From NCBI GenBank assembly GCA_019634625.1, contig JAHCBA010000045.1:1-53118 (forward strand): a DNA stretch of 53,118 bases, in the 5' to 3' direction. The stretch is from Verrucomicrobiia bacterium. GTDB taxonomy: Bacteria > Verrucomicrobiota > Verrucomicrobiia > Limisphaerales > CAIMTB01. Position numbers and translations under genes: made by a program. This document shows, one piece after another, positions 42,535 through 51,530 of this stretch. The number at the start of each line of letters is the position of its first letter. The stretch's first letter is position 1. The notes beneath the pieces are model-generated. The model was given only the letters and a program-made list of their open reading frames with translations, ran no database searches and was not told the DNA's origin.

Positions 42535-43482
42535 TCAGCGGGGCGGCGGGTGGCGCTGGAGGAGTTCGGCGACCAGCGCCTCGGGGCTGGTGCCGGCGAA
42601 CCGGGCCTGGGGATCGACGACCAGGCGATGGGCGATCACGGGAACGGCGAGATCGGCCAGGTCGGCCGGGGTGACAAAGTCGCGACCGTCGAACAGTGCC
42701 AGGGCCTGGGCGGCCTTCATGAGGGCCAGCGAGGCACGCGGACTGGCGCCCAGCGGGACGCCGGGGAGACTCCGGGTGGCCTGGACCAGGGTGACGATGT
42801 AGTGGAGGAGTTCCTCGCCCACCCGGACTTCCCGCACGGCGGCCCGGACGCGCCTCAGTTCATCCTGGGAACAGCACGGTTCGATGCGGCTGAGGGGGTG
42901 TTCGCGGACCTGGGCGGTGAGGATGGCCACCTCCTCGACGGGCGGCACGTAGCCCAGTCCGAAGCGCATCATGAAGCGGTCCATCTGGGCTTCGGGGAGG
43001 GGGTAGGTGCCGCGGAACTCGACCGGGTTCTGCGTGGCGATCACGAAGAACAGGTCGGACAGGGGGCGCTGGGATCCATCGACGCTGACCTGGCCCTCGG
43101 CCATGGCCTCGAGGAGGGCCGACTGGGTGCGCGGCGAGGCGCGGTTGATTTCGTCGGCGAGGAGGATGTCGGTGAAGACGGGACCTTCCCGGAACCGGAA
43201 GGCGTGTTCCTCCTGGTAGAAGACCGAGACGCCGACGATGTCGGTGGGAAGGAGATCCGGGGTGAACTGGATGCGGGTGAAGTGCGCATCGATCGACAGG
43301 GCGAGCGTCTTGGCCAGGGTGGTCTTGCCGGTGCCGGGAAAATCGTCGAGCAGGACGTGTCCGCCCGCGGCGAAGGCGGCAAGGAGCCTCCGGGTGGCCA
43401 CTTCCTGACCCCGCAGGACGCGCTGGATGTTGTCCGACAGGCGGCGCAGGACCTCGGCCGCCCCGGCGGGATCGTCTGGCAT
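42535..43482 (-). CDS. MoxR-family AAA+ ATPase
   Basis: The 315-residue protein starts at ATG 43482. It has the MoxR N-terminus (LSDNIQRVLRGQEVATRRLL), Walker A GHVLLDDFPGTGKTTLAKTL (GTGKT at 50-54) and DIVGVSVF. Walker B is DILLADEINRASPRTQSALL, sensor 1 is FVIATQNPVEFRGTYPLPEA, and the closing ASPRASLALMKAAQALALFD block is present. It precedes the DUF58 gene on the same strand, with 13 bp between them, the classic MoxR-DUF58 arrangement. These ATPases act as chaperone-like factors; the client is not evident here. Confidence 0.94.
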   Translation of the reverse strand: MPDDPAGAAEVLRRLSDNIQRVLRGQEVATRRLLAAFAAGGHVLLDDFPGTGKTTLAKTLALSIDAHFTRIQFTPDLLPTDIVGVSVFYQEEHAFRFREGPVFTDILLADEINRASPRTQSALLEAMAEGQVSVDGSQRPLSDLFFVIATQNPVEFRGTYPLPEAQMDRFMMRFGLGYVPPVEEVAILTAQVREHPLSRIEPCCSQDELRRVRAAVREVRVGEELLHYIVTLVQATRSLPGVPLGASPRASLALMKAAQALALFDGRDFVTPADLADLAVPVIAHRLVVDPQARFAGTSPEALVAELLQRHPPPR

Positions 43483-43576
43483 GCGCGGGACGATGCGATG
43501 GGCCGGGCCTGGATCGCAACCTTGCACTCAGTCGGGCGCTTGCCGGTGGGGCGTGGGGACGGGCAAGGTCGGGAGC

Positions 43577-46500
43577 ATGCCTTCCGGCGGTGCCATGAAG
43601 TCACGGCGATGGGGCGGGTCGGTCCGCGGCGGCCGGCTTGGGTGGGTGGCCGCCATGGCGCTGGCGGGATGGGCGTGGGGGAACCCGGTTCAGGCCGGGG
43701 CGGACGGGCTGGAGCCGCCGTATTCGATCCGGGTGTGGCGGGTGGAGGATGGATTGCCGGACAATGTGGTCCACGCGATTCAGCAGGGGCCCGATGGATA
43801 CCTGTGGATCAGCACGCCGGGAGGACTGGCGCGCTTCGATGGGGTGCGGTTCCGGGTGTTCGACCGGCGCGAGCCCGGACTCGAGAGCGATCGCAGCGTC
43901 CGGATGGCGCCCGGGGCGCAGGGCGAACTTTGGATTTCGATGGACCGGGGGGAACTGGTGCGGTTGCAGGACGGGCGGTTCACGACCTTCGATGCCAGCG
44001 CGGGTTGGCCGATGGAACGTTTCCAGGCCCGGGGTGGAGTCAGGCTGCCGGATGGGGCCATGGTGTTTGTCACGGCTTCTGGAAGTCTGTGGCGGTACGA
44101 CGGACGGCATTTCTCCGGGATGCAGGGCCCCCCAACGGAGCAACCCGTGACCGGCATGGTGAACGACGAGGCGGACCCGGCCTGCCTCTGGGGGCGCACG
44201 GTGCAGGACCTGTTCCGGTTCGACGGGGAATCATGGACGCAGGTTCCCACCCACGGCGGGGCGGAATCCGGGGAGGAGCACCGTCGTTTTGTGGCCATGG
44301 CTCCCCGTCACGGCGGAGGGGTCTGGCTGCTCCGGCGCGGTTCCGTCACGGGGATTCAGCCCGATGGGGGTGAGCCGCTGGTGTTCCCTTTTCTCGAGAT
44401 CCCGAGCGCGGCCTCGCTGGTCGAGGACGCGCAGGAGCAATTCTGGATTGGGACGTGGAGTGCCGGTCTGGTGCATTTGAACGGGAGGACGGGTGGCGTG
44501 CGGGTGTTGGGCCGGGAAGAGGGATTCCCCGCGGCGTCCGTGCGGGCCATGATTCTGGATCGGGAGGGAAATCTTTGGGTGGGGACCAATGGCAGCGGTC
44601 TGGTGCGGGTGCGTCCGGGGATCTTCGGGAGCCGGGACCGGGCCCGGGATTTCCCGGCGCCAGACTTCATGCCCCTGAGCCTGGCGGAGGATGAGAATGG
44701 ACGGATCTGGGTGGGGCGCCTCGATGGCGGGCTGGCGGTGATCGATCGGGCGGGGGCGGTGCATTCCGGCGAACCTGGGCCGATCAATGCCTGGTCGGCG
44801 GCGGCGCGACGGGACGGCCGGCTTTGGTTCGGTACGTACGCCGGGGTGTGGTTCAAGCTGGATCAGGCCGGACGCACTGCGCTTCTCGGGACCAACAAGG
44901 TCGATGGGGCGAGTCCCCTGATCCGCACGCTGTGCGAGGATTCGCACGGAACGCTGTGGGTGGGCACGGAAGGGGGCTTGTGGCGCCACAACGACGCGAA
45001 AGGCGTCCTGGAGCCAGGAGCCGACGGATCGATCCGGGACGCGGTCCAGGTGATCGAGCGCGATCCGGGCGGCGGACTCTGGATCGGACTCCGCGACGAC
45101 GGGCTGTTGCACCTTCACGGTGCCGAGGTGAAGCGGATCGAGGGGGAACTGCCCAGTCCCGGAGTGCGGTCGCTGCTGGCGGAGAGGGAGGGTTCGCTGT
45201 GGATCGGAACCCGCCTTGGGCTCGCGCTGTACCGCCATGGGCGGATTCGCCCCATCGACGCGGGGGAACGGTTGGGCGAGGCGGAGGTGACGGGCATTCT
45301 GGACGACCAGGCGGGGTCGCTCTGGCTGGGATCGACGCGGGGAGTCTTCCGGTTGTCCCGCACGGGCATCGAGGCGTTTCTGCGCGGGGAAACGCGCCGG
45401 GTCCATCCGGGCGCCTACGGCACGGTCGATGGGCTTCCCTCGAATCAGAGCGCGTCCGGGTGCCCTTCCGCGTTGCGGGCGCGGGACGGGCGATTGTGGT
45501 TCGCGACCGTGGATGGGGTGGCGGTGGTGGATGCGGCGCGACTGCCGCGTTCGCTCAATCCGCCACGGATGGTGGTCGAGGAGGTGCTGGTGGATGGGGT
45601 ACCCGGCGCGGGACGGGGTTCCGTGGCGCCGGCGACCGTGACGGTGCCGCCGGGGCCGCGTCGGGTGGACATTCGCTACACGGGGATCAGTCTGGGTGCG
45701 CCGGAAGCGGTGCATTTCCGGTGGCGCATGGTCGGGTTCGATTCGGAGTGGCGGGAGGTGGGCGGCGAACGCATCGCCTCGTTCCACGGCCTGCCGCCGG
45801 GCCGGTACCGGTTCGAGGTGATGGCGGGGAACAACGACGGTGTCTGGAGCGCGTCGGCGGCGACGGCGGCACTGATCATCCGGCCGGCGTGGTGGCAGAC
45901 GTGGTGGTTCCGCGCCGCCGGGGGCGGGGCGCTGGCCGGCATGGTGGCCCTGGGCTACGGCGCCCGGGTGGCACGGCTGGAACGGGCACGCCGGATGCAG
46001 AGGGAGTTCTCGCGGCGGTTGATGGAGTCGCAGGAACAGGAGCGCCGCCGGCTGGCATCGGAACTGCACGACAGCCTCGGACAGAACCTGCTGGTCATCA
46101 AGAATCGGGCCCTGCTCGGCCTTCGCCATGAAACGCAGGCTGCCCGGATGTCGCAGGAACTGGCCCAGGTCTCCGAACTGGCCTCGCAATCCCTGCGCGA
46201 GGTGCGGGCCATGGCCCATGAACTGCGCCCGTTCCAACTCGATGAACTCGGACTGACCCAGGCCATCACCCACATTGCCCGGCGTCTCGGGGACGCATCG
46301 GACATCGAGGTCGGGACCGATCTCGAGGACCTCGACGGCGCGCTGCCGAAGTCCGCGGAGATCCACTTCTTCCGATCCGTGCAGGAATGCCTGACCAACA
46401 TCGCCAAGCACTCGGGAGCGCGAACCGCCAGCGTTCGGGTCCGGCGTGAAGGGAACCACCTGGCCGCTCTGATCCGGGATGACGGCTGCGGGTTTGATCT

Positions 46501-46651
46501 GCGGGGGGCCGGCGCCGGTTTCGGCCTGCGCAGCCTGCGCGAGCGGGTGGGCACGCTGGGAGGCCGGATCGAGTTCGAGTCCCGTCCCGGAGCCGGCGTC
46601 CGGGTGGAGATTGTGGTGCCCCTGGCGGAAGCCATCCCCCCCGAATCATGA
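43577..46651 (+). CDS. sensor histidine kinase with two-component propeller (Y_Y_Y) domain
   Basis: The 1024-residue protein starts at ATG 43577 (ATG 43595 also possible). A signal peptide leads into ~14 periplasmic reg_prop blades with repeated W-x-G-T/S-x-x-G units such as DGYLWISTPGGLARFDG, GNLWVGTNGSGLVRV and GSLWIGTRLGLALY. A Y_Y_Y domain follows (VDIRYTGISLGAPEAVHFRW, LPPGRYRFEVMAGNNDG), then one membrane helix near 780-800. The HisKA_3 core has the phospho-His in SELHDSLGQNLLVIKNRA (residue ~831), and HATPase_c has ECLTNIAKHSGA and DDGCGFD. The design is that of hybrid-type carbohydrate sensors. The regulator gene overlaps by 4 bp. Confidence 0.92.
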   Translation: MPSGGAMKSRRWGGSVRGGRLGWVAAMALAGWAWGNPVQAGADGLEPPYSIRVWRVEDGLPDNVVHAIQQGPDGYLWISTPGGLARFDGVRFRVFDRREPGLESDRSVRMAPGAQGELWISMDRGELVRLQDGRFTTFDASAGWPMERFQARGGVRLPDGAMVFVTASGSLWRYDGRHFSGMQGPPTEQPVTGMVNDEADPACLWGRTVQDLFRFDGESWTQVPTHGGAESGEEHRRFVAMAPRHGGGVWLLRRGSVTGIQPDGGEPLVFPFLEIPSAASLVEDAQEQFWIGTWSAGLVHLNGRTGGVRVLGREEGFPAASVRAMILDREGNLWVGTNGSGLVRVRPGIFGSRDRARDFPAPDFMPLSLAEDENGRIWVGRLDGGLAVIDRAGAVHSGEPGPINAWSAAARRDGRLWFGTYAGVWFKLDQAGRTALLGTNKVDGASPLIRTLCEDSHGTLWVGTEGGLWRHNDAKGVLEPGADGSIRDAVQVIERDPGGGLWIGLRDDGLLHLHGAEVKRIEGELPSPGVRSLLAEREGSLWIGTRLGLALYRHGRIRPIDAGERLGEAEVTGILDDQAGSLWLGSTRGVFRLSRTGIEAFLRGETRRVHPGAYGTVDGLPSNQSASGCPSALRARDGRLWFATVDGVAVVDAARLPRSLNPPRMVVEEVLVDGVPGAGRGSVAPATVTVPPGPRRVDIRYTGISLGAPEAVHFRWRMVGFDSEWREVGGERIASFHGLPPGRYRFEVMAGNNDGVWSASAATAALIIRPAWWQTWWFRAAGGGALAGMVALGYGARVARLERARRMQREFSRRLMESQEQERRRLASELHDSLGQNLLVIKNRALLGLRHETQAARMSQELAQVSELASQSLREVRAMAHELRPFQLDELGLTQAITHIARRLGDASDIEVGTDLEDLDGALPKSAEIHFFRSVQECLTNIAKHSGARTASVRVRREGNHLAALIRDDGCGFDLRGAGAGFGLRSLRERVGTLGGRIEFESRPGAGVRVEIVVPLAEAIPPES

Positions 46652-47301
46652 CCTCGCCCCACGAACTCATCCTGGCGGACGATCACCCGGTCTTTCGGCG
46701 CGGCCTGGCGGATGTGTTGCGCGAGGAGCCTTCGGTCCGGGTGGTCGGGGAAGCCGGGGACGGCGAGGAGGCGCTGGCCTTGATCCGGGCCCGGCGACCG
46801 GCGGTGGCCATTCTGGATGTCCACATGCCCAAACGGACCGGCCTCGAGGTGGCGCGGGCCTTGAAGGAGGAGGGCCATCCGACACGGGTGGTGTTGCTCA
46901 CGATGCATGAGGATCCCGAGTTCCTCGAAGCGGCGATGGACCTCGGGGTCTGCGGCTACGTGCTCAAGGAGAACGCCGTGACCGATGTCCTCGCGGCGCT
47001 CAAGACCGTGCTGGAGGACCGGATCTACATCAGTCCCACGATGTCCGGCCTGGTGGCGCGCCGCGCCGGGGAACGGGCGTCCCTGAAGCGGGAGAAGCCC
47101 GGGCTCGACCGGTTGACCCCGGCGGAACGGCGGATTCTGCGGCTCATCGCCGACGACAAGACCACCAAGGAGATCGCCGGGGTGCTCGGCATCAGCGTGC
47201 GGACCGTGGACACGCACCGGCAGAACATGAGCCACAAACTGCACCTCGAGGGAGCGCACAGCCTGCTGAAGTTTGCCTTCGCGAACCGGTCGAGGCTGTG
47301 A
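46648..47301 (+). CDS. NarL/LuxR-type response regulator
   Basis: This is a 217-residue regulator whose ATG overlaps the stop of the propeller kinase (ATGA), so the two are translationally coupled. The receiver carries the acidic pair in ILADDHPVFRRGL, phospho-Asp57 in VAILDVHMPKRTG, Thr in LLTMHEDPEF and Lys in GYVLKENA. The C-terminal LuxR helix-turn-helix is LTPAERRILRLIADDKTTKE followed by VRTVDTHRQNM. It fits the DesR/NarL class that pairs with HisKA_3 kinases. Targets are unknown. Confidence 0.95.
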   Translation: MTSPHELILADDHPVFRRGLADVLREEPSVRVVGEAGDGEEALALIRARRPAVAILDVHMPKRTGLEVARALKEEGHPTRVVLLTMHEDPEFLEAAMDLGVCGYVLKENAVTDVLAALKTVLEDRIYISPTMSGLVARRAGERASLKREKPGLDRLTPAERRILRLIADDKTTKEIAGVLGISVRTVDTHRQNMSHKLHLEGAHSLLKFAFANRSRL

Positions 47302-47405: not shown

Positions 47406-47433
47406 ATCCACATATTTACGTTAATTTGTGGAT
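47406..47433. promoter_or_regulatory. 28-bp near-perfect palindrome at the DUF4143 ATPase start
   Basis: The AT-rich block begins ATCCACA and ends TGTGGAT around an ACGT centre (47418-47421). 24 of 28 positions match the reverse complement, and the four mismatches are two pairs of T:T positions. It lies directly before the GTG start at 47435 in the only markedly AT-rich spot of this region. It could be an operator for autoregulation or an mRNA hairpin blocking initiation. Confidence 0.75.
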
Positions 47434-47434
47434 C

Positions 47435-48571
47435 GTGATCCCGAGATTACTAAAGAAAAAGCTGCTTGCGGCACTCGATGGGAGCGAGTCGCGCAAGGTC
47501 GTGTGCCTGTTCGGTCCCCGGCAGGTGGGAAAGACCACGCTGCTGCGGACCCTCTTCGCAGAACTCCCGGGCAACCGGGAATTCCTGAATGGCGACTATG
47601 CGGACGACCGGGCGCTGCTGGTGCCGGAAAGGGCGGCCTTGCAACGGCTGGCGGGGCACCTGGATCTGCTCTTCATCGACGAGGCGCAAAACGTGCCCGA
47701 GATCGGCCGGGTTCTGAAGCTGCTGCACGATGAGTTCCCCCGTCTGCGGGTGGTGGCGAGCGGATCGGCATCGTTCGATCTGCGCCGGAAGACGGGGGAA
47801 CCTCTGACCGGACGGCAGGTGGTCTTCCATCTGTTCCCTTTCGCGCTGGCCGAGTTGAAGCCGGGCGCCACAACGGTCCGGCAGTGGATCGAGCACGGGA
47901 TGATCTACGGCTGTTATCCCGAGGTGGTACTGACCGTGTCGCCGGAGAAGAAGCGGGCTGCGCTCCGACAGCTCGCTGCGGACCATCTCCTGAAGGACCT
48001 CTTTGCCCAGGTGAACGTGAACCGCGACCGGCTGCACGATCTGTTGCGCCTCATCGCGCTTCAGGTTGGCTCCGAGGTGTCCCTCCATGAGCTGGCGGGC
48101 GCCGTGCGGCTCGATGTGAAGACCGTGGACCGCTATCTGGGATTGCTTGAGGACGCTTTCGTGATCTTCCGGCTTGGCGGGTTCAGTCGCAACCTCCGCA
48201 AGGAGGTTGGGAAATCACGGAAGATCTACTTCACGGACCCGGGCATCCGTAATGCCCTGCTGGACGCCTTTCACCCGCCCACGTTACGCGATGACCTGGG
48301 CCGGTTGTGGGAGAACTACCTCCTGATCGAACGGCGCAAGCGACTGGCCCACGAGGGGATCTCCGTCACGCATTGGTTCTGGCGCACCTACGACCAGCAG
48401 GAGATCGATCTCATCGAGGAGACGACTGACGGCGCGCGGCTTGCCGCCTTCGAGTTCAAGTGGAATCCAGCTGCGGGCCGGACCCGCCTGCCGAAGGCGT
48501 TTCTCGACACCTATCCTCATGCGGAGGCGATGGTGGTGACGCCGGAGAACGTGCAGGATTTCCTGCTTTGA
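47435..48571 (+). CDS. AAA_14/DUF4143 family ATPase
   Basis: The protein is 378 residues from GTG 47435 (TTG 47426, inside the palindrome, is an alternative). It has the AAA_14 Walker A motif VVCLFGPRQVGKTTLLRTLF (GPRQVGKT at 27-34) and Walker B LDLLFIDEAQNVPEIG. The arginine-finger region is SGSASFDLRRKTGEPLTGR. The C-terminal DUF4143 nuclease-like domain shows VKTVDRYLGLLEDAFVIFRL, KIYFTDPGIRNALL and the acidic/Lys pattern EIDLIEE...AFEFKWN typical of PD-(D/E)XK-like folds. These proteins are widespread, often sporadic, and of unproven role. The local drop in GC at the start suggests transfer. Confidence 0.9.
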   Translation: MIPRLLKKKLLAALDGSESRKVVCLFGPRQVGKTTLLRTLFAELPGNREFLNGDYADDRALLVPERAALQRLAGHLDLLFIDEAQNVPEIGRVLKLLHDEFPRLRVVASGSASFDLRRKTGEPLTGRQVVFHLFPFALAELKPGATTVRQWIEHGMIYGCYPEVVLTVSPEKKRAALRQLAADHLLKDLFAQVNVNRDRLHDLLRLIALQVGSEVSLHELAGAVRLDVKTVDRYLGLLEDAFVIFRLGGFSRNLRKEVGKSRKIYFTDPGIRNALLDAFHPPTLRDDLGRLWENYLLIERRKRLAHEGISVTHWFWRTYDQQEIDLIEETTDGARLAAFEFKWNPAAGRTRLPKAFLDTYPHAEAMVVTPENVQDFLL

Positions 48572-48745: not shown

Positions 48746-49660
48746 TCACCAGGTTTCCGGGTGCGGCTCATGATCGTTGTTCCAGATCCGGCGCGCCGCA
48801 TCGGAGGCCTCGGTCCACCGCCGGAACTTCCTGTATTCGACATGTCCATCAACAAACACGGCATTGGCGCCGGCGTTGTGGGGCTGGCCAAGGGCGGCCT
48901 TGTTATCCGGGTAAGGGTTCACGTAGTCGAACAGGTTTCCCACGGCATCGGCGATCGCCAGCATTCCGCTTGGCGCCTTGACGGCGGAGTCCGCCACCGA
49001 TTGCAGCCTCCCATCCACCGTCACCGCAGGCCCGAGCCCCAGCGGCGTGACCACGGGCGGTCTCCACACCGTTCCAAGCCCGTTGTAGCCGTACCCGTAT
49101 GGATTCAATTCAAAGGGCCGAAGCTCGATCGTCGGCAGCCCTGTCGGAGTGTCTCCGAAACTCACACTGCTTCCGATCCCTCCCGCCGGTTGGACAGGAC
49201 CGGAGCCGCCGCCGAACCGCTGCACCTTTTTCGCCGGACAGTGAAAAACCGTCCTCTCATGTGGCCTGGCAAGACGCACGGATAGATCCCAGACCTCGCC
49301 CCCCAGGACGTACCGCGCCAATTCCGGCAGCCCTCGGGTCCCGGGCATATTCGGCGAGCCCAACCAGGTGGCATCGGTCGAGGTCGCCTGCGACGGGAAA
49401 CCCCCGGGATAGGTCCCGGCATCCCCGACATACAGGTTGAGGGCGATCCCCAGTTGCCGAAGGTTCCCCTTGCAGACCGCCGAGTAAGCGGCCGACTTCG
49501 CGCGGGATAATGCCGGGAGGAGCAGCGACGCAAGCACGGCAAGGATGGCGATCGTGACGAGCAGCTCGATGAGAGTGAAGCCTCCTTCCCGGGTCCCCAT
49601 TCCCTCGTCCCGGACCCGTCCGGGCCCCATGCCACGTTCTGGAGTGAATCTGCGGATCAT
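48746..49660 (-). CDS. type II-like pseudopilin (DUF1559 type)
   Basis: The protein is about 304 residues from ATG 49660; a GTG or ATG further up (49690) and ATGs at 49630 and 49600 are alternatives. The prepilin leader ends in GG, followed by [20 protein letters not shown], so cleavage and N-methylation occur before Phe. The globular part has paired Cys residues, G-x-G and H-V-E-Y segments, and ends in [11 protein letters not shown], an ending very common in Verrucomicrobiota. Members are numerous per genome, and their role in secretion or surface display is unclear. Nothing links it to its neighbours. Confidence 0.85.
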
Positions 49661-50206
49661 CGTACGGCGGGCGCAGGTTGAGGATTTCACGACTACGTCC
49701 GCACTCCATCATGGCCGAAAAGGAAGAGTCAAGGGGGAATGCCGCCACGGGCGCATCTGCGAGTTGTCGGAAGGCGCAACGGAATCGGGGTCGGGGTCGC
49801 TATCGGAATCGGTATCGACGGGAGCCATAAAGCTTCGCGCATCCCCGGAGATCATTCCGGTTCGATTCCGATAGCGATCCCGACCCCGACGGTCCCCTCC
49901 TCGTATCCATCGACCGATCGCATCTCCGTGGGTGTCGGAGTCGCGGTGGGTCGAGAGCTCCGCGTCGGTAGCTCCGCTCCATCCTGTTCATCGTGTTCAT
50001 CCTGTCCAAGACCTCAGACCCGTTGACGTCGGGTCCGATTCTACATTCCTGGCACAAACGATGCTGACGAGCCTGCCCCAGTTGCACCAACGGACTTGCC
50101 CGAATGGAGGTTCTGCTTAGGCTGCGAGAAATGAAAACCCGACCCCACAGATGAATCATGGAGGGCATGCCGAAGGGCCGAGTCGTCAGGGTGTGAGTGG
50201 CGGTCT
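49661..50206. other. ~550-bp repeat-rich intergenic DNA, no gene seen
   Basis: This region holds the large inverted repeat at 49785-49889, simple repeats of the GTCGGGGTCG and TGTTCATCGTGTTCATCCTG kinds, and decayed DNA up to the flank of the IS remnant. Short frames on both strands lack codon structure or known motifs. TGTTCATC-type words are common in verrucomicrobial intergenic DNA. Confidence 0.6.
49785..49889. repeat. 105-bp inverted repeat with 27-bp arms
   Basis: The arms at 49785-49811 (TCGGGGTCGGGGTCGCTATC...) and 49863-49889 (...GATAGCGATCCCGACCCCGA) pair over 26 of 27 positions around a 51-bp loop. The arms are themselves made of GGGGTC and GAATCG-like units. The purpose is unknown; it could form a strong cruciform or RNA stem. 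Confidence 0.75.
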
Positions 50207-51530
50207 AGCCCGACTTGGCGGATTCGAGGGGTCACCAGAGCGTAAGTCTCGTAAAATCAACAGATCGGGACCATGGGTCTGCACTACAGACCCGGTTGCG
50301 GGGGCACCTCCTTCGCCGCGATGCGCGGGGGTGGTTGCGCGGGTAGCGTCAGCTTCAACTTCTCCAACAACAGTCGAAGTTCTGCTTCCGGTTGGGTGTA
50401 GCGCGTGAGGATCAGCTCGCAACTATTCGCAGCGTCCTTTTCCACCGTCGGGATATGCACGTCCACCATGACCATCGATGTGAACTTTTCCAAAGCGCTA
50501 CGAACCGTCAGCCCCGGGGCCAGTTGCTTGAGTCGATGTCCCAATATCACGTGAAGGCAGTACGCCAGGAAGCACACGAAGATGTGCGCCTCGATCCGGC
50601 GTTCAGAGTTGATGGTGGATCGGCCGGATGCCGAGGTCCCCTTTGATCTCCTTGAAGGCTTGCTCGACGGCCACCAGCTGGATGTAGAACTGCCACAGGC
50701 GAGCCGGATCGCCGTCCTTCAGGTTCGTCCGAGACAGATACCGGCCTTCCCGGCGCCTCACCTGACGGAGCTTCTTCTTCCTGAGTTCATACGTGAAGGC
50801 ACCCTTCCCGGGGTCGATCGTCACCTGGACCAGGGGCCAGGCACTCGGGGACTGGTTCTGCGCCGCGCACAACTTCATCAGCAACTGCTCACGACTCAGG
50901 TCCATCTCCGAGAGTTCTCCCAGGCGCCTCCAAGGTTGCTTGAGCTGGCGCCGGCGCATCGCCCGTTCCTTGGCGACGCGATCGACGCTTCGGGCCAGCA
51001 CATAGACTTCCTCCAGATCGGCGAGCAGCTTGACCTCCACACCTTCGCACACCTCCTGCCACCACAGATCGGTCAGGCGCTTCTCCAACCGACTCAACCG
51101 CCCTTTGGGCGTGCCGACCAGATACTGTACCGGCGGATCGTGCCGGCGCATCGATCCTCGGGAAAGAGGGCGAGTGTGCGGGGATCGGACTCCTGCTCAC
51201 TCAGAACCTCAATGGACTTTCGCCAGGCGGCCTCCTGGGAAGAGTTGATCTCGCCCAGGTAGAGAACATGGCGCTGAGCGATGCGCCCGTCACTCAGGCG
51301 CCGGTTCTCGACCAGACTCCAGTAACGATGTTCCTTCCCATCCTTTTTCCGGGTGCAGTAGCGCAGGAACATGGCCGCCAGCGAGGATACACACGGCGGG
51401 AATCCCGGGAATGGGCAGGGTCTTCACTACAGCACTTTGGAGCCCCGAAGCAGAACCCGCGCCAGCGTCCTATCAATGACTTCCACCGACCAAATTTGCT
51501 CTCTGCCGTCCGAATCCGCCAAGTCGGGCT
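50207..51530. mobile_element. decayed IS1634-like insertion with 20-bp flanking inverted repeats
   Basis: A perfect 20-bp inverted repeat, AGCCCGACTTGGCGGATTCG at 50207-50226 and its complement at 51511-51530, brackets the transposase remnant. Inside these, near-identical 15-mers GGGTCTGCACTACAG (50275-50289) and GGGTCTTCACTACAG (51418-51432) lie in direct orientation; the left one is also a 7+7 palindrome (GGGTCTG/CAGACCC). Which pair marks the true element ends is uncertain. No target duplication is obvious. Confidence 0.55.
50284..51372 (-). pseudogene. IS1634-like (IS4 superfamily) transposase, deleted and frameshifted
   Basis: Three minus-strand pieces of one transposase remain. The N-terminal piece (51372 to ~51155) reads MFLRYCTRKKDGKEHRYWSL and ends at ALFPEDR. 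It is joined directly to the late part (~51151 to 50603), with YLVGTPKGRLSRLEKRLTDL, VKLLADLEEVYVLARSVDRV, AKERAMRRRQL and VEQAFKEIKGDLGIRPIHHQ. The C-terminal piece (50604 to 50284) starts ERRIEAHIFVCFLAYCL. The middle of the protein, including the first two catalytic Asp residues, is deleted. An extra base at 50605 makes a TGA and shifts the frame. The Glu-containing segment survives. It cannot encode an active enzyme. Confidence 0.85.

Follow-up and report, generated by a model that had tools for sequence, protein, structure and literature searches.

The 53,118-nucleotide stretch of Verrucomicrobiia contig JAHCBA010000045.1 analyzed here (the window) carries a 28-bp imperfect palindrome, ATCCACATATTTACGTTAATTTGTGGAT (the exact letters of 47406-47433), just before the start codon of a gene encoding an AAA_14-DUF4143 ATPase. 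We propose that this palindrome is a private operator bound by the very ATPase whose gene it precedes, which would repress its own transcription, a reading to which we assign a probability of about 0.7. The site is conserved together with its gene and confined to it, genes of the family show an excess of repeats just upstream of their start codons, the direct repeats among these are helically spaced, and operator similarity is linked to protein similarity. These comparisons make it very probable that the palindrome serves the ATPase gene as a conserved operator, while the gene's own product is the most likely, if less certain, protein to bind it.

47406..47433, no strand: 28-bp imperfect palindrome, proposed operator; 12 of 14 pairs, with 25, 22 and 22 of 28 letters shared with the sites of L334, L043 and L044
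47415..47432, plus strand: conserved core TTTACGTTAATTTGTGGA; exact copies in the window and at one other place in 387 genomes of the phylum, 5' of a decayed DUF4143 gene
47435..48571, plus strand: AAA_14-DUF4143 ATPase gene, 378 aa, GTG start, PADLOC PDC-S01 family (Pfam, PADLOC)

A palindrome conserved with the ATPase gene

The first-pass annotation of this DNA had described a palindrome that matches its own reverse complement at 24 of 28 positions and adjoins a GTG start codon. Both the letters and the pairing (12 of 14 complementary pairs) are confirmed, and a single base separates the palindrome from the GTG at 47435 with which the ATPase gene starts. This choice of start is supported by the protein itself, as its first residues, MIPRLLKKK..., align with homologues that begin MVPR, MIPR or MIKR.

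The palindrome is the sole 28-mer with at least 12 of 14 pairs in the window, and its pairing is not reached once when the local 115 bases are shuffled 2000 times. The notion that it is a chance palindrome without function draws on the finding that 20 dinucleotide shuffles of the whole window hold a mean of 0.4 such sites (maximum 2); by a stricter best-repeat score applied to 90-110 bp of upstream sequence, the window's site is borderline, with p values of 0.05 and 0.06 in two runs. Given that composition alone yields 0.4 such sites per window, the case depends on comparison with relatives, where 22-25 of the 28 letters are kept at three sites, the flanks are unrelated in the two cases measured, and repeats are in excess across the family. 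By these sequence comparisons, and not by the palindrome itself, chance appears to be ruled out, and we regard it as exceedingly improbable.

The nearest relative of the ATPase in a scan of genome contigs lies in an Akkermansiaceae genome (L043; 79% protein identity), and the others are mostly from Bacteroidetes at 40-50% identity. The window 28-mer is identical at 22 of 28 positions to the site in L043, at 22 of 28 to that in L044 (Bacteroidia, 46% protein identity) and at 25 of 28 to that in L334, which has 11 of 14 pairs. The first-pass suggestion that a similar palindrome be sought at orthologues was thus borne out. In contrast, the 60 bp upstream of the 28-mer, counted for two of these sites, match the window at 16/60 (L334) and 11/60 (L043, at background) positions and are unrelated in both. 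Pairing drops to 9 of 14 in both L043 and L044, and it is therefore the core that is conserved rather than perfect symmetry; the outer TCC and GGA are also conserved in the window, L334 and L043. Matches to TTTAYGTWAATTTGWGGA without mismatch occur once per genome in G000, G058 and G059, and these are the window, L043 and L044 sites.

The core recurs exactly at a single other place in the 387 phylum genomes, in L334, where it stands 5' of ATGATCCACAGATTC. This locus (L334:127-302; G210, contig 104) is a gutted DUF4143 gene, in which the operator core and start codons are followed by a stop and then by a fragment of the last domain, identical to the last part of the window protein at 21 of 48 residues (E 5e-10). 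As judged from these remains, the L334 operator has outlived its gene. When one mismatch to TTTACGTTAATTTGTGGA is allowed, the same genomes hold 23 places; the two exact copies belong to DUF4143 genes, while no DUF4143 frame was found at the other 21, and a reversed control gave a number similar in size by eye.

Within the window's own 6.7-Mb genome, no second place matches the palindrome arms with 0-1 mismatch, and places with two mismatches are no commoner than for the reversed pattern. A regulon of many genes is ruled out for this genome, since arms and core occur nowhere else in it. Likewise, mobile-element ends are ruled out, as the 3' end has no partner repeat nearby. In the four other genomes searched from the window's genus, the ATPase has no match above 34% identity, and the gene therefore probably arrived laterally.

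Repeats upstream of DUF4143 genes

For a wider survey, family genes were located by a Walker-A pattern, and the counts that follow apply to members carrying it. Exclusion of near-duplicates and of genes with less than 110 bp of upstream sequence left 131 genes, to which a held-out set of 51, later taken from four genomes, was added after 7 of 58 paralogues already in the first set had been dropped; all 182 match the family profile. A gene was scored as significant when its best inverted or direct repeat reached p<=0.05 against dinucleotide shuffles.

Between -90 and 0, significant repeats precede 53 of 123 non-redundant family genes (43%) versus 11 of 106 neighbor genes (10%; Fisher 2e-8), and family genes themselves yield 8% at -190 to -100 (122 genes) and 2% inside genes. 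In the 110-bp upstream regions, 61 of 131 genes have a significant repeat, as do 15 of the 23 closest relatives, and the held-out set gives 30 of 51. The combined test thus finds a significant repeat just 5' of the start in 91 of 182 genes; when inverted and direct repeats are tested separately, 49 genes have only the former, 31 only the latter, 20 both and 82 neither. Repeats just 5' of the start codon are, on this statistical evidence, a family-wide trait of DUF4143 ATPases. One operator sequence for the whole family is ruled out, as the sequences vary from gene to gene. The earlier proposal of an operator therefore holds and was too narrow in one respect, in that repeats occur family-wide, but as worded it is unsupported in another, in that the palindrome sequence is not shared across the family and nearly every gene has its own.

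Direct repeats are set at a few preferred distances. At a score of at least 9, spacings in the first set are 32 bp in 15 genes (0.25 expected), 33 bp in 5 (0.2), 22 bp in 5 (0.05) and 44 bp in 3 (0.1), and no other spacing occurs twice. The held-out genes show spacings of 32 (6), 33 (6), 23 (2) and 22 bp (1), with one each at 14, 20, 31 and 46. At this score, a 32- or 33-bp direct repeat is present in 20 of 131 first-set and 11 of 51 held-out genes, while spacing counts for neighbor genes give 2 + 2 of 246. The preferred distances correspond to two, three and four helical turns, and the repeated sequence varies by gene, a pattern that may be the footprint of a protein on one face of the DNA. 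We also observed that the second gene of L110 and the gene of L146, from different sampled groups, carry direct repeats that resemble TTGACTATTTTGCA at a spacing of 32 bp and may represent an operator conserved across phyla.

These results bear on the alternative of translational control by an mRNA hairpin at the start codon, which the first-pass annotation had also raised. The window leader folds (z -2.2), with the GTG lying in a second hairpin, and the leaders of L044 (z -2.1) and L014 (z -2.2) likewise fold better than shuffles; however, L043, at 79% protein identity, lacks the hairpin (z +0.56), as does L046 (z +1.52). In addition, direct repeats are significant and inverted ones are not in 31 of the 182 genes, and spacing by whole turns is expected of double-stranded DNA, not RNA. 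A search of Rfam returned only a sub-threshold match, inside the gene, at 22.7 of 40 bits. With L043 and L046 unfolded, no Rfam family and direct repeats common, the hairpin is ruled out as a general explanation, and we consider it improbable.

Operator similarity follows protein similarity

Operators resemble one another where the proteins do. A similarity of at least 12 is reached by 15 of 29 operator pairs at protein identity of at least 0.6 and by 36 of 159 at 0.5 or more, compared with 0 pairs at either level in a control region from -230 to -140 and with a mean of 2.8 (maximum 10) of the 159 pairs when operators are permuted. At protein identity of at least 0.4, operators are similar in 71 of 947 pairs versus 3 of 947 for the control. 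Across the 159 related pairs, similarity spans from about -60 to the stop codon, with none farther upstream or past the stop.

Another source of such repeats could be a host-encoded regulator or nucleoid protein, of which they would be the sites. This is compatible with the sequence, as the genes are mobile and their upstream regions AT-rich (GC 0.38 at -90..0), yet just 10 of 405 pairs of paralogues within one genome have a similar operator, and across genomes it is the operator, not the flank, whose similarity tracks protein identity. A host regulator is therefore unlikely.

Domains of the ATPase

The window protein matches Pfam AAA_14 (E 1.3e-27; 96.8 bits, cut-off 27) and DUF4143 (E 7.5e-37; 127 bits, cut-off 28.1), and it is covered at full length by the PADLOC model of the candidate single-gene defence PDC-S01 (PDLC04789; E 3.4e-127, residues 1-377 of 378 against model positions 1-373 of 375). 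Its AlphaFold model, with a predicted local distance difference test score (pLDDT) of 91, comprises an AAA+ part, a winged helix and a C-terminal domain.

47435..48019, plus strand: AAA+ ATPase part, residues 1-195 (AlphaFold model; 2qen and 2fna matches over about residues 1-277)
48020..48184, plus strand: winged-helix part, residues 196-250, candidate operator reader (helix-helix-helix-strand in the model; covered by the 2qen, 2fna and Cdc6/Orc1 matches)
48296..48568, plus strand: residues 288-378, predicted PD-(D/E)XK-like nuclease domain (invariant across 16 relatives: E323, D325, E340 and K342)

By fold, the model matches the archaeal STAND-type ATPases 2qen (Z 16.4, 251 residues aligned, 3.4 A) and 2fna (Z 15.7, 253 aligned, 3.7 A) as well as Cdc6/Orc1 (2qby_B; Z 13.5, at a root-mean-square deviation of 9.6 A), and the AAA+ and winged-helix parts also match NLR proteins. 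No solved structure closely related by sequence was found for the ATPase. Folded alone, the C-terminal domain gives listed matches that are mostly PD-(D/E)XK nucleases with modest Z scores (best 7.1), and Foldseek returns none at E<=0.001. The model thus depicts a STAND-like ATPase that carries a winged helix and a predicted PD-(D/E)XK-like nuclease domain.

This architecture lends some appeal to the possibility that the repeat is a DNA substrate, which could form a cruciform, serve in replication or transposition, or be cut by the nuclease domain. Palindromes can extrude, the PD-(D/E)XK nucleases that the C-terminal domain resembles include Holliday resolvases, and the ATPase part is similar to both RuvB and Cdc6/Orc1. 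However, the site lies just 5' of the start and has no 3' partner repeat, similarity stops at the stop codon, members with direct repeats cannot extrude, and viral contigs show no enrichment of the core, with 1 match versus 2 for the reversed pattern. We accordingly judge a substrate role very improbable. The same viral count rules out a decoy of viral DNA, and searching viral contigs with the protein yielded no relative.

With respect to which part of the protein might read the operator, partial correlations with operator similarity are 0.25-0.29 for the C-terminal domain, 0.12-0.14 for the winged helix and -0.07 to 0.09 for the AAA segments. These values hint that the gene's own product is the reader, and their order is a hint only, because faster-changing segments could produce the same order.

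Controls and evidence that weighs against the proposed operator

Several observations count against a private operator read by the ATPase. Half of the family genes (91 of 182) have no significant repeat by our test, and the C-terminal domain tracks operator similarity better than the winged helix does, although this may merely reflect rates of change. Fic genes, intended as a negative control, have significant repeats in 13 of 30 cases. In contrast, TetR-family genes of the same genomes score in only 3 of 29 (1 of 30 was unusable because its upstream DNA was too short, it lacked an ATG or it contained an N), and the test may therefore miss ordinary short operators. A search around the window's site revealed no sigma-70-like promoter, and the overlap of repeats with promoter-like sites, at 43 of 57 cases versus 34.1 expected, is slightly above random placement.

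The Fic genes (L269-L298, from 12 searched genomes) have strong inverted or direct repeats just 5' of the start, with 44-bp direct repeats in four. Because they share the layout, the layout is not specific to the DUF4143 family. The first-pass annotation had asked whether the palindrome recurs at unrelated genes; its sequence was not found at such genes, but the same arrangement is found at Fic genes.

Relation to known systems

PDC-S01, an ATPase fused to a PD-(D/E)XK domain, ranks fourth in abundance among prokaryotic defences according to PMC12988326, where it is also described as unvalidated. The available portions of this paper and of PMC13356809 do not mention an upstream operator, and in the open-licence literature we found no paper on regulation of DUF4143, PF13635 or PDC-S01 by such a site, and none for PF13635 at all. 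In Thermus thermophilus HB27, the AAA_14-DUF4143 gene TT_P0211 is 6.6-fold up with plasmid in an Argonaute-bearing strain, according to the part of PMC4406477 available. The pTT27 gene in L186 is probably TT_P0211; in the 60 bp before its start (L186:2375-2434), short palindromes are visible by eye.

A general parallel in regulation is offered by self-regulating repressors with palindromic operators, which likewise have a repeat beside the start of their own gene, although DUF4143 sites are longer and helically spaced. BrxR and CapW, in BREX and CBASS, are also described, in the sources as far as available, as controlling transcription of a defence locus through palindromic sites. These regulators are separate WYL-domain proteins, whereas here no candidate reader other than the ATPase is in view, and almost every copy comes with a site of its own. 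Cdc6/Orc1 initiators bind repeated origin boxes. These initiators and the archaeal STAND-type ATPases (2qby, 2qen, 2fna) have an AAA+ part followed by a winged helix, as in the window protein, which in contrast adds a nuclease-like domain.

Neighboring genes

Directly upstream of the ATPase gene, a two-component system occupies 43427-47301 on the plus strand, made up of a sensor kinase, which carries Reg_prop propeller repeats and a Y_Y_Y domain, and a LuxR-type response regulator; the two genes overlap by four bases. On the minus strand, a frame at 48746-49690 has, by eye, a prepilin-type start, and fragmented frames at 50284-51372 resemble, also by eye, a decayed transposase.

A model for private operators and its implications

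We propose that the operator is part of the ATPase gene unit and would be inherited together with the gene. The ATPase, as a dimer or higher oligomer, would bind its own operator and thereby hold down its own transcription, and infection or DNA stress may alter the state of the ATPase and lift repression. Each member would have a private sequence in a common geometry, with either palindromes or direct copies spaced by two or three turns of the helix and lying no more than about 60 bp from the start codon.

Extended to the family, it is about an even bet that this abundant group of candidate defence genes consists of self-contained modules, each combining effector and repressor in one protein with a private operator of fixed helical geometry, and that lone Fic genes may share the principle. 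What would be new is the combination of private yet geometrically uniform operators in a huge candidate defence family. If this is true, dozens of such modules could sit in one genome with little cross-talk, and the model predicts dozens of mutually independent repressor-operator pairs. A gene-specific operator would provide a handle on the protein's binding target, the circumstances under which it is switched on and the part of it that reads DNA, and the operator layout may serve as a marker for finding related single-gene modules.
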